Positions 3,354 through 43,085 of a stretch of DNA of 64,000 nt are shown one piece after another. The notes under the pieces were generated by a model that made no database searches, was not told the origin of the DNA, and worked only from the letters and a program-made list of their open reading frames with translations. Origin of the DNA: an uncultured Tropicimonas sp. (lineage in GTDB: Bacteria > Pseudomonadota > Alphaproteobacteria > Rhodobacterales > Rhodobacteraceae); the NCBI GenBank assembly GCA_947497945.1, contig CANMIP010000001.1:186001-250000 (forward strand), in the 5' to 3' direction. A program made the position numbers and the translations under genes. Within the stretch, counting starts at the first letter, position 1. Every line of letters begins with the position of its first letter.

Positions 3354-3430
3354 TGGTCGGAGTGAGAGGATTCGAACCTCCGACCCCTGCCTCCCGAAGA
3401 CAGTGCTCTACCAGGCTGAGCTACACTCCG
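3354..3430 (-). tRNA. tRNA-Pro (anticodon CGG)
   Basis: A full 77-nt cloverleaf is readable on the minus strand. The acceptor stem is CGGAGTG / CACTCCG with discriminator A and an encoded CCA. The D arm contains AGCTCAGCCTGGTAGAGC. The anticodon arm is CTGTC-TTCGGGA-GGCAG, giving anticodon CGG, and the T arm contains GGTTCGAATCC. It closely resembles the E. coli proK product. It decodes CCG, a frequent proline codon in a GC-rich genome. A dedicated terminator follows. Confidence 0.96.
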
Positions 3431-40045: not shown

Positions 40046-41338
40046 ATGGTGGATATCGCCACGCGCGTCTGGAACCACAAATGGAAGATCGACCCGATCG
40101 TCCGCTCCATGATCGACACGGACTTCTACAAGCTCTTGATGTGTCAATCGGTCTTCCGCAACAAGCCAGACGCCCGCGTCGAGTTTTCCCTGATCAACAG
40201 GAGCTCGGACATTCGCCTCGCCGAGTTGATCGACGAGCGGGAGCTTCGGGAACATCTCGACTATGCCCGCTCCCTGTCACTGACCCGCGGTGAGAGCACC
40301 TGGCTGCGCGGCAATACCTTTTATGGAAAACGCCAGATGTTCCGCTCGGATTTCATGGAGTGGTTCGAACAGATGCGTCTTCCGGAGTACAAGCTGGAAA
40401 AACGTGACGGTCAGTTCGAGTTGAGTTTCGAGGGCGCCTGGCACGAAGTCATGCTTTGGGAGATCCCGGCGCTGACGATCCTGATGGAGCTGCGCGGTCG
40501 TGCGGTCCTCAACCGGATGGAAAAGTTCGAGTTGCAGGTGCTCTATGCCCGCGCGATGACCAAGCTCTGGGAGAAGGTCGAACGCCTGCGGAAGGTCCCG
40601 GATCTGAAGATCGCCGATTTCGGAACGCGGCGACGCCATTCCTTCCTCTGGCAGGACTGGTGCGTCCAGGCGATGCTGGAAGGGCTCGGAGACACCTTTG
40701 TCGGAACCTCCAACTGCCTGATCGCGATGCGGCGCGAGGTCGAGGCAATCGGGACGAATGCCCATGAGCTGCCCATGGTTTATGCTGCCCTGGCCGAAGA
40801 CGATGAAGCGCTTGCCCAAGCGCCCTACCAGGTGCTGGAAGATTGGCAGGATGAGCATGACGGCAACCTTCTGATCATCCTGCCGGACACCTACGGCACC
40901 AAGGGTTTCCTGAAGCGCGCGCCGGATTGGCTCGCCGGCTGGACTGGCATCCGGATCGACAGCGGCGATCCCGTGGAGGGCGCGGAAACGGCCATCGAGT
41001 GGTGGGAGTCGCGCGGCGAGGATCCGCGCGAGAAACTGGTCATCTTCTCCGACGGCCTTGACGAAGACAGGATCATCGAGTTGCACAAACGGTTCAACGG
41101 CCGCGTTCGTGCGAGCTTTGGCTGGGGCACATTGCTGACCAATGATTTCATGGGATTGGTGCCGGATGACGCGATCCGACCGTTCTCGCTCGTGTGCAAG
41201 GCCGTTTCGGCAAATGGCGTGCCGACGGTCAAGCTGTCCGACAATCCCAACAAGTCGATGGGACCGGCCGAGCAGGTCGCGCGTTACAAGCGTGTCTTTG
41301 AGGTCGGAGAGCAGACGCCGATAGACGTTACAGTCTGA
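40046..41338 (+). CDS. pncB: Nicotinate phosphoribosyltransferase
   Basis: A 430-residue enzyme that joins nicotinate to PRPP to form nicotinate mononucleotide, with ATP hydrolysis. The N-terminal DTDFYKLLMCQSVF, the core FGTRRRHSFLWQ, GTSNCLIA and IRIDSGDPVEG, and the C-terminal SFGWGTLLTND are family hallmarks. With pncA it completes nicotinamide salvage into the Preiss-Handler pathway. The ribosome site is only a GGGTCGC-type purine stretch. Confidence 0.96.
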   Translation: MVDIATRVWNHKWKIDPIVRSMIDTDFYKLLMCQSVFRNKPDARVEFSLINRSSDIRLAELIDERELREHLDYARSLSLTRGESTWLRGNTFYGKRQMFRSDFMEWFEQMRLPEYKLEKRDGQFELSFEGAWHEVMLWEIPALTILMELRGRAVLNRMEKFELQVLYARAMTKLWEKVERLRKVPDLKIADFGTRRRHSFLWQDWCVQAMLEGLGDTFVGTSNCLIAMRREVEAIGTNAHELPMVYAALAEDDEALAQAPYQVLEDWQDEHDGNLLIILPDTYGTKGFLKRAPDWLAGWTGIRIDSGDPVEGAETAIEWWESRGEDPREKLVIFSDGLDEDRIIELHKRFNGRVRASFGWGTLLTNDFMGLVPDDAIRPFSLVCKAVSANGVPTVKLSDNPNKSMGPAEQVARYKRVFEVGEQTPIDVTV

Positions 41339-41613: not shown

Positions 41614-42036
41614 TCAGTCCTCGCCTGAAACCGGCTTTCGCAAGGTCTTGATTGCGCCTCTTTGGCTCTTCTTGTCCAATCTTCGGCGCTTGGAGGACAA
41701 GGTCGGACGGGTTGCTATGCGCCTGCGTGGCGCCTGCAGGGCCTTCCGGATCATCTCGGCAAGCCGCTCGCGCGCGATCTCCCGGTTTCGGGCCTGGCTG
41801 CGGGTGTCCTCGACGCGAAGGAGAATCGCACCGTCAGAGGTCCATTTTCGTCCGGCATTGCGCTTGAGCCTAGACTTGACCGGACCGGTCAGGTTGGGGC
41901 TTCGCGCTGCCTCGAAGCGCAGCTCGACCGCGGTCGAGACCTTGTTGACATTCTGTCCACCCGGACCGGACGAGCGACTGAATTGTTCGGTCAACTCCCA
42001 GTCTTCGATCATGATCTCGTCATTGATTCTGAGCAT
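41614..42036 (-). CDS. arfB: Ribosome rescue factor ArfB (YaeJ-like peptidyl-tRNA hydrolase)
   Basis: A 140-residue release-factor-like hydrolase that frees stalled ribosomes without a stop codon. The GGQ motif is in RSSGPGGQNVNKVST. The C-terminal tail is highly basic (RRIATRPTLSSKRRRLDKKSQRG is its core region), as needed to enter the empty mRNA channel. The domain that reads stop codons is absent, which separates it from prfB. The start at 42036 has GGGGCGGAG before it; a frame 24 bases longer has no such site. It lies about 200 bp downstream of the small RNA/ORF unit on the same strand. Confidence 0.9.
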   Translation of the reverse strand: MLRINDEIMIEDWELTEQFSRSSGPGGQNVNKVSTAVELRFEAARSPNLTGPVKSRLKRNAGRKWTSDGAILLRVEDTRSQARNREIARERLAEMIRKALQAPRRRIATRPTLSSKRRRLDKKSQRGAIKTLRKPVSGED

Positions 42037-42237
42037 TTCTCCGCCCCTTCCTGCCATCACCTAGACCGAAGGCAGCAGGCACCGCCACCCTGAACGGAAC
42101 AGTTTTCTACTCTCTCGGGAATCGAGTTCTCACCCGGGGCGCCGTGTGGGCAGGAGCTTGTCCCAGGGATTTCGCCTGAGCAGCCGCGAAGATCTCAGGT
42201 CCTTGGCCGGTATGCTTGAAGTCGCTCCTCAGAACTG

Positions 42238-42266
42238 AAAAGGCCGCTCTTATTCAGAGCGGCCTT
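42238..42266 (-). terminator. Intrinsic terminator of small RNA unit
   Basis: On the minus strand AAGGCCGCTCT and AGAGCGGCCTT form an 11-bp stem with a 5-nt loop, followed by TTTT then CAG. It ends the transcript that contains the 18-codon ORF at 42393 and precedes arfB by about 200 bp. Confidence 0.8.
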
Positions 42267-42420
42267 CCGAGCTATCATGGAGGTGAGGTCTCTTGGACCC
42301 ATAAGTCCGTCGAGAAGCTAAGCCTCTGGGGCCTGCCTAACGGCGTGTCTCCTCAATATCATCGACACCTCTCTCCAGCATGACTCTCGACACTGGATCA
42401 CCTCCTTTCGCTTGTTGCGG
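42240..42420 (-). ncRNA. Candidate structured small RNA with Shine-Dalgarno/anti-Shine-Dalgarno pair
   Basis: The minus-strand transcript would contain AAAGGAGGTGATCC (42395-42408), a 14-nt perfect complement of the 16S rRNA 3' end. An 18-codon ORF follows. Next come a stem AGAGGC-TTA-GCTTCT, a stem GGAC-TTATG-GGTCC (one base left unpaired), then CCTCACCTCC (42279-42288) and a terminator. The TCACCTCC inside the last element is an exact 8-nt complement of GGAGGTGA in the ribosome site, so the RNA could fold to hide it. TTGACA on the minus strand (42451-42456) is a possible -35. I cannot match it to a known RNA family. Confidence 0.5.
42337..42393 (-). CDS. 18-codon small ORF with perfect ribosome site
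   Basis: GTG start, 18 codons, TAG stop. It would encode MSRVMLERGVDDIEETRR. The AGGAGG core lies 7 nt before the GTG, ideal spacing, within a 14-nt perfect match to the anti-Shine-Dalgarno. The peptide is charged and has no signal or membrane segment. A second possible start is the internal ATG at codon 5. It may be a leader peptide whose translation controls the RNA fold, or a genuine microprotein. Function unknown. Confidence 0.5.
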   Translation of the reverse strand: MSRVMLERGVDDIEETRR

Positions 42421-42450
42421 TTGCCTTCAGCGTGGCACAAATGAGTTACC

Positions 42451-42456
42451 TGTCAA
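42451..42456 (-). promoter_or_regulatory. Candidate -35 of the small RNA unit
   Basis: TTGACA on the minus strand overlaps the last codons of the queuosine-precursor transporter gene, about 43 bp before the ribosome site of the small ORF. A -10 at the expected distance is weak (region 42428-42434), as is usual in alphaproteobacteria. Confidence 0.35.
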
Positions 42457-43085
42457 TGAATTTCTGCGCTTCGCGACATCAAACGCCCGACAATGAGGCG
42501 GAACGGGATCAGCGCGATCAGGGCCAGCGACAGCTTGACCATCCAGTCGGCAATGGCGAGCGAGACCCAGAGAGGCGCTTCAGGACCGCCGCCCAGAAGC
42601 GGAAGGCTGTCCTGCGCCCAGGCCGGAATATTCCCGGGTTCCAACCCGTTGAACGTTGCCGAAAAGGCGATGGAAAAGAAGATGATGGTGTCCAGGGAAG
42701 ACCCGACAAGCGTCGAAGCAAGCGGTGCGCGCCACCAACGACCCTCACGAAGACGATCGAACACCGCGATGTCCAGAAGTTGGGCAGCCAGGAAAGCCGT
42801 TCCGGACCCGAGCGCGACACGAAGCGTGACAAGCGGACCAAACTCGCCGTGAATCTGGCTTCCGATCAATGAGCAGGCAACCCCGACCAGAAAACCGATA
42901 AACACGACACGCCGTGCCGGACCGGCACCGTAGAGGCGGTTCATCAGGTCCGTGACGAGGAATGCGAAGGGGTAGGTGAGTGCGCCCCATGTCAACCATT
43001 GTCCCAGCAGGTGCTGGACAAGAATGTTGGAGACCACGACAACCGCGGCCATGGCAAGGATGCCGGGAAGATATTTTCGAGCCAT
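42453..43085 (-). CDS. Queuosine precursor transporter (YhhQ/VUT family)
   Basis: A 210-residue inner-membrane protein with about six transmembrane helices of the vitamin uptake transporter family that imports queuosine precursors (preQ0/preQ1). Characteristic pieces are LTWGALTYPFAFLVTDLMNRLYG and ASTLVGSSLDTIIFFSIAF. The start at 43085 (MARKYLPG) has AAGGAAGGC nearby. A longer frame to 43289 lacks a ribosome site and is not membrane-like. I see no clear preQ1 riboswitch in the leader. Confidence 0.88.
   Translation of the reverse strand: MARKYLPGILAMAAVVVVSNILVQHLLGQWLTWGALTYPFAFLVTDLMNRLYGAGPARRVVFIGFLVGVACSLIGSQIHGEFGPLVTLRVALGSGTAFLAAQLLDIAVFDRLREGRWWRAPLASTLVGSSLDTIIFFSIAFSATFNGLEPGNIPAWAQDSLPLLGGGPEAPLWVSLAIADWMVKLSLALIALIPFRLIVGRLMSRSAEIH

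Follow-up and report, generated by a model that had tools for sequence, protein, structure and literature searches.

An RNA related to CC2171 in Tropicimonas appears to be a small mRNA whose ribosome site is predicted to be hidden by its own 3' region

Results

Elements of the locus

The window analyzed here is a stretch of 64,000 nucleotides from an uncultured Tropicimonas sp. (Rhodobacteraceae). On its minus strand, a small unit lies between yhhQ, encoding a queuosine-precursor transporter, and the ribosome-rescue gene arfB; an earlier note on this DNA had named these two neighbors. In order of transcription, the elements are as follows.

42453..43085, minus strand: yhhQ (Vut_1 family; Pfam PF02592), the gene upstream of the unit, given as context only
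42451..42456, minus strand: -35 element TTGACA overlapping the yhhQ stop codon, seen in the sequence; found without mismatch in 41 of the 65 distinct Rhodobacterales loci
42429..42437, minus strand: likely extended -10 element (TGC-CACGCT) with a 16-nt spacer, picked out by eye from the sequence and related loci
42241..42417, minus strand: full-length match to RF01867 (CC2171), model positions 1-159, scoring below the gathering score
42393..42409, minus strand: 17-nt complement of the 16S 3' end, holding the 14-nt Shine-Dalgarno sequence (SD; 42395-42408), based on the sequence and on same-genus 16S ends
42374..42397, minus strand: predicted start-codon hairpin (CCAG...CTGG), from folds of the window unit and related units
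42337..42393, minus strand: 18-codon small ORF (sORF) with GTG start and TAG stop, the start and stop conserved and frame-specific
42279..42286, minus strand: anti-SD TCACCTCC, partner of the SD, from the sequence, the fold and 63 aligned units
42238..42266, minus strand: intrinsic terminator, an 11-bp stem and U run, from the sequence and the fold, with equivalents in other units of the family
41614..42036, minus strand: arfB (RF-1 domain; Pfam PF00472), the gene downstream of the unit, given as context only

The 14-nt SD AAAGGAGGTGATCC (42408-42395) had been described as fully complementary to the 16S 3' end, which is correct, and the complementarity in fact extends to 17 nt, GAAAGGAGGTGATCCAG. 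The GTG at 42393-42391 lies 7 nt past GGAGG and opens the 18-codon ORF reported earlier, which encodes VSRVMLERGVDDIEETRR and ends with TAG at 42339-42337. The exact anti-SD that had been placed about 110 nt downstream is also there, with 111 nt between TCACCTCC (42286-42279) and the matching part of the SD, GGAGGTGA (42405-42398). The unit closes, as claimed, with the terminator, whose 11-bp stem pairs 42266-42256 with 42250-42240 and is followed by U's. The 14-mer SD is present as a single copy in the 5.79-Mb genome, where simple arithmetic gives about 0.04 expected copies. No 16S gene was found in the window's own assembly, and among the 30 relatives searched, 4 have the 16S end GCGGCTGGATCACCTCCTTTC, 3 of these belonging to the same genus. 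A 16S fragment or rRNA remnant could be ruled out, as the match covers 17 nt only and is then followed by a conserved start, frame and stop. The unit is neither a chance occurrence nor an artefact.

Elsewhere in the window, a nicotinate phosphoribosyltransferase gene lies beyond arfB (40046-41335, plus strand), and the sole tRNA found is a tRNA-Pro (CGG) at 3354-3430 on the minus strand.

Relationship to RF01867

The unit aligns with all 159 positions of RF01867, the family of the Caulobacter sRNA CC2171, at 45.6 bits (E = 1.2e-8). Since this is below the Rfam gathering score of 75 bits, we call the unit a clear divergent homologue rather than a formal member of RF01867; the only Rfam hit in the window that passes its gathering threshold is a tRNA. 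CC2171 and the window unit align over their whole length, share the 5' block CAACAA..GAAAGGAGGUGAUCCAGUGUC, and both end in a terminator. The Rhodobacterales form differs from CC2171 in having an additional 3' anti-SD, predicted to close the SD, and the 18-codon ORF.

Matches to RF01867 at E <= 0.001 were found in 121 of 150 Rhodobacteraceae genomes, none of the 150 scoring over the cut-off, and in 66 of 289 genomes class-wide, with 10 exceeding the cut-off. Of the 14 control genomes, Caulobacter vibrioides alone matches. When 20 related loci were compared with the model, 17 matched at E <= 0.01, including 7 over the cut-off. DNA similarity alone recovered the unit in 9 of 9 same-genus genomes searched (counting its own genome) and in numerous further genera of this family, with the strongest similarity at the SD and the ORF start.

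Seven genomes carry two or three RF01867-like matches each, some of the second matches being weak, and paralogues of the RNA may therefore exist within genomes. A motif scan returned, among the matches listed, records titled as Gemmatimonadota MAGs (two) and a SAR92 MAG; these may be chance matches, mis-binned contigs or cases of transfer.

CC2171 reportedly originates from the work of Landt et al. in 2008. Among the papers searched, we found none joining CC2171 with Caulobacter and nothing relevant on GGAGGUGAUC/GGAGGTGATC together with a small RNA, and the parts of the literature covered did not mention a coding nature or an SD lock of the CC2171 family. The string 2171 does not occur in the available portions of PMC11005374 and PMC5988900. 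Two earlier Caulobacter ncRNAs are in fact translated according to the accessible text of PMC4117421, which does not give their names.

Conservation of the start, stop and frame

The earlier note had proposed conservation of the ribosome site and the ORF as checks on its reading, and both were borne out in a second set of genomes. These were 60 of the 121 RF01867-matching Rhodobacteraceae genomes, the highest-ranked in the covariance-model search once most previously used genomes had been left out, with no ORF rule applied; two of their units repeat first-set units and the other 58 are new. The block AAAGGAGGTG is intact in all 60, the start codon is always GTG or ATG, and the ORF has exactly 18 codons in 54. 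With the two repeats removed, the block is intact in 58 of 58, the start is GTG in 56 and ATG in 2, 18 codons are found in 52, and TGG does not occur in place of the stop. Across the class, leaving the first base of the start codon free in the search pattern gave 42 hits with G in 22, A in 16, T in 4 and C in none (tallied by eye), and the best 30 class loci picked by the covariance model start with GTG (16) or ATG (14) at identical spacing.

The stop codon behaves similarly. Codon 19 in 64 distinct Rhodobacterales units is TAG (28), TGA (27), TAA (8) or CCG (1); this set had no ORF-length rule and required NTG at the SD spacing, with L at codon 6 and E at codon 7. By simple arithmetic, independent columns would give about 12 TGG codons among the 64, and none was observed. 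In the second set (n = 60), codon 19 is TGA in 25 units, TAG in 22, TAA in 7 and another codon in the remaining six, again never TGG. The first stop in frame 0 falls at codons 17-27 in 30 of 30 class loci and 59 of 60 second-set units, while the other two frames have a stop in this range in only 2 and 6 of 30, and 9 and 11 of 60, respectively; the genomes are related by descent, and such counts are not independent events. Judged from these comparisons, the start and stop appear to vary only in ways that would preserve translation, and the most conserved block of the family is a putative translation start. Even though CC2171 is listed as an sRNA, its conserved block reads as such a start, and on comparative grounds a family catalogued as sRNA appears to be translated. 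The combination of a strong SD and a short ORF is general across the class.

These features also bear on whether the unit could be a trans-acting RNA or sponge, whose SD-like block would soak up anti-SD sRNAs or whose anti-SD would mask the ribosome sites of other mRNAs. Anti-SD sRNAs are known in the class: rhizobial sRNAs carry CCUCCUCCC anti-SD loops (PMC3927594, in the part available), and SisA-D are anti-SD sRNAs with CrfA as their sponge (PMC12559287, likewise in part). However, the conserved block here complements the 16S tail, in contrast to the CCUCCUCCC loops, and inspection by eye found no CCUCCUCCC hairpin loop in the unit. Downstream of the block, moreover, come a start codon, a frame and a stop that are strictly kept, none of which a sponge needs, and we regard this explanation as decidedly unlikely.

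Constraint on the peptide

The ratio of nonsynonymous to synonymous polymorphism (pN/pS), computed from ORFs with a stop at codon 19 (the stop counts of this set were not used as a test), is 0.37-0.65 for codons 2-12 and 1.01-1.14 for codons 13-18. Peptides differ between groups, with 14 aa (VS..KRCHLAG) in Bradyrhizobium-type units, 18 aa (VSRVILERGVGTV) in Rhodobacterales and 23-26 aa elsewhere, e.g., VSHCH.... Met-Ser recurs class-wide with few exceptions, and the sequence beyond it varies between families.

It might be that the 18-aa product is what acts, the RNA being merely its tightly controlled mRNA. The conserved start, stop and frame, the low pN/pS across codons 2-12 and the recurrent Met-Ser all speak for such a peptide gene. 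However, codons 2-12 lie within predicted helices and may be conserved partly for structural reasons, and families differ beyond Met-Ser. As codons 13-18 are free of amino-acid constraint, selection seems to act on translation taking place, more than on most of the peptide. A peptide gene is, in our assessment, unlikely on balance, although some amino-acid constraint on codons 2-12 means that the peptide may matter in part.

A GRGCARCC-like motif was seen by eye in related loci about 55-65 nt past the start codon; it lies just past the sORF stop in Rhodobacterales and inside the ORF in other families.

Predicted occlusion of the ribosome site in Rhodobacterales

For the window unit, the predicted fold has an energy of -76.5 kcal/mol (z = -4.12), which none of 200 shuffles equaled, and in it the SD and anti-SD are base-paired. 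For comparison between units, 63 of the 64 Rhodobacterales units were aligned; L071 was omitted because its terminator call ran on, a further unit was too short, two were copies of the window unit, and L or M then E was required at codons 6-7. The mean predicted unpaired fraction of the SD in the 63 units is 0.047, compared with 0.321 when everything past the start codon was shuffled, and 62 of the 63 hide their SD more fully than their own shuffles do. In the second set, the corresponding values are 0.065 and 0.305, and 56 of 60 units are more hidden. For 61 of the 63 units, the SD and anti-SD are predicted to pair with a mean probability above 0.5, and the start codon of Rhodobacterales units is predicted to lie within a short hairpin. 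The translation-controlled switch suggested earlier is the best reading of the fold in Rhodobacterales.

The earlier note had also named conserved SD/anti-SD pairing with compensatory changes as support for its reading, and only the first part of this stood. Standard pairs occupy 99.2% of cells of the SD/anti-SD helix in the 63 aligned units, and the anti-SD changes between C and U and between A and G with pairing preserved. Because the SD itself never varies, the changes in this helix are one-sided only, which is weaker than covariation. Two-sided changes were found in a second helix, P2, which pairs codons 12-15 with a segment about 45 columns downstream and has 86 cells changed on both sides among the 63 units. 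For the structure made of P2 and the SD helix, this compares with 29.2 (s.d. 6.6) in shuffles, and 0 of 500 were as high. However, the number of pairs changed on both sides in this structure is not significant (8 versus 7.1 shuffled, reached in 165 of 500); in a three-helix version it is 12 versus 8.7 (10 of 500). The helices counted against these controls were set by hand and chosen after viewing the sequences. The P2 of the window unit is itself weak (probability 0.18), and RNAalifold on a MAFFT alignment returned two short helices only.

An initial structure with a helix P1b, in which the anti-SD would pair with GGAG of codons 6-8, was ruled out, since column 161 finds its partner in the ORF in 27 of 63 units but in the SD in 62 of 63, and the mean fold probability of ORF/anti-SD pairing is 0.008.

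Units outside Rhodobacterales

A different picture was obtained from 120 sites outside the group, of which 99 are distinct units, 4 had no terminator found and the rest are duplicates or too short. The SD of the 99 is unpaired at 0.374 compared with 0.271 in shuffles, and only 28 are more hidden; two of the 99 are Rhodobacterales variants that passed the filter, and both are hidden. A class-wide SD lock thus failed outside Rhodobacterales and the 14-codon Bradyrhizobium-type units. Since the SD is more exposed than in shuffles outside Rhodobacterales, the lock cannot be the general function of the family. The switch is clade-specific, while the start and sORF are class-wide, and the folding predictions suggest that the lock arose in some lineages. 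In Bradyrhizobium-type units, whose 14-codon ORF contains KRCHLA, an anti-SD CACCTC within the ORF is predicted to hide the SD, and the start codon is predicted to be almost fully paired in eleven such units. This CACCTC may represent an independent way of hiding the SD.

Neighboring genes

The RNA is preceded by yhhQ in 58 of 63 distinct Rhodobacterales loci and followed by arfB on the same strand in 47 of 55, whereas in other families the corresponding counts are 1 of 95 and 0 of 81. Other neighbors recur only inside groups, the largest cluster having 9 loci. The association with arfB and yhhQ is synteny, and the link with ribosome rescue or queuosine that had seemed tempting is not supported, given these counts in other families and the 8 of 55 Rhodobacterales loci that have the RNA without arfB.

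The same data bear on whether the unit could be an arfB leader, with the terminator acting as an attenuator and ribosomes on the sORF setting read-through into the rescue gene. Besides the frequent same-strand arfB downstream, the gap between terminator and arfB start is at most 42 nt in 16 of the 37 loci with both placed, which leaves scant room for a separate promoter with a leader, and read-through into arfB, though no defining feature, is possible in some species. However, the gap is 198 nt in the window, and TANNNT promoter-like boxes seen by eye just before several arfB starts suggest that arfB has its own leaderless transcripts. An attenuator requires a constant downstream gene on the same transcript, and arfB is not constant, being missing from some Rhodobacterales loci and absent from all those examined in other families. 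Of the other parts of an attenuator, the terminator is present, and candidate antiterminator pairings (GGCCC/GGGCC or CCTCC/GGAGG) were seen by eye in some units only. An arfB leader is, accordingly, quite unlikely.

Promoter and terminator

In 53 of the 65 distinct Rhodobacterales loci, the best match to TTGACA is located 51-54 nt upstream of GGAGG. A consensus scanner run over 41950-42600 reported no promoter on either strand, which is weak evidence against an antisense antitoxin RNA given that it also missed the likely sense promoter. Nor did it report the unit's terminator in this region, because the terminator falls outside the scanner rule (at least 5 T in 8 bases). With a hairpin finder of looser rules, 64 of 64 family units gave a terminator, and at least two of these calls (L071 and one other) look doubtful by eye. 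Most likely, the unit has its own promoter and terminator and is a free-standing gene.

Within 60 nt before the SD, ACAC-N3..9-TGTG occurs in 41 of 122 distinct Rhodobacterales-type upstream stretches, where base shuffles predict 0.6 per 123. This element might be an operator that covers the promoter spacer. In the window, the corresponding stretch (about 42429-42456) does not have it.

Discussion

The conservation of the unit, its start, stop and frame, a covarying helix and the predicted occlusion of the SD were all computed here, and we judge the unit to be a translation-gated small mRNA or dual-function RNA. We consider it probable, though by no means certain, that the Rhodobacterales version of CC2171 is a free-standing gene for a tiny mRNA with a site complementary to the 16S tail, an 18-codon ORF and a 3' anti-SD lock. 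The RNA would be transcribed as this tiny mRNA, and the 16S-tail-complementary site would start translation of the ORF. A ribosome might load during transcription, before the 3' anti-SD emerges about 110 nt later, or when something opens the RNA. The finished transcript would then close as the 3' anti-SD pairs with the SD and the short hairpin holds the start codon, and translation would stop. Several steps of this account are inferred, namely that the cell transcribes and translates the RNA, that ribosome loading competes with folding, and that the outcome has an effect downstream, which would most likely be that of a regulatory RNA whose free or paired state is set by ribosome access.

A broader and more speculative idea, to which we give only a small chance, is that CC2171-type RNAs are translation-reporting RNAs throughout the class, each transcript using its near-perfect complement of the 16S tail to report whether a free 30S subunit arrives before folding ends, and that Rhodobacterales store the answer as an open or locked fold. 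If this is true, a 180-nt gene would encode a sensor of free ribosomes. A whole branch of the family, in 121 of the 150 Rhodobacteraceae genomes searched, lies below the Rfam cut-off. A 16S-tail-complementary site that occurs in many Alphaproteobacteria and is predicted to be locked in one order offers a clean natural system for studying the purpose of extreme SD pairing and whether cells sense free ribosomes via RNA; PMC13009471 provides background on extended SDs.

An architecture of the same kind occurs in the AapA type I toxin mRNAs of H. pylori, where, according to the available part of PMC6733600, the SD is likewise occluded by a distant anti-SD near the 3' end and hairpins lie near the start. 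The unit might accordingly be a type I toxin-like mRNA silenced by 5'-3' pairing, and the pairing predicted in 61 of 63 units between the SD and its distant partner is in line with this. However, such mRNAs encode short hydrophobic peptides, and the hydropathy of the peptides here is low: the mean GRAVY of the second set is -0.13, that of the window peptide is -0.94, and values above 1 occur in 0 of 60 second-set and 0 of 30 class peptides. The SD is, in addition, open in most other families, and unlike AapA the unit is a free-standing class-wide gene. We therefore give next to no credence to a toxin; as the peptides are not hydrophobic by hydropathy, the unit would work like type I toxin mRNAs without being one.

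Dual-function and coding sRNAs include two other small transcripts with a short translated ORF, Pos19 of Rhodobacter sphaeroides and rnTrpL of Sinorhizobium. As described in the accessible part of PMC5036791, Pos19 differs from the unit in having a 150-nt ORF whose translation survives SD mutations and in not having been found in other species. The RNA rnTrpL differs in being leaderless and a tryptophan attenuator, as stated in the portion of PMC10117765 at hand. The translation-gated small mRNA proposed here is thus similar to both in its small size and short ORF, and to the AapA mRNAs in the predicted closure of its SD by a distant 3' anti-SD.
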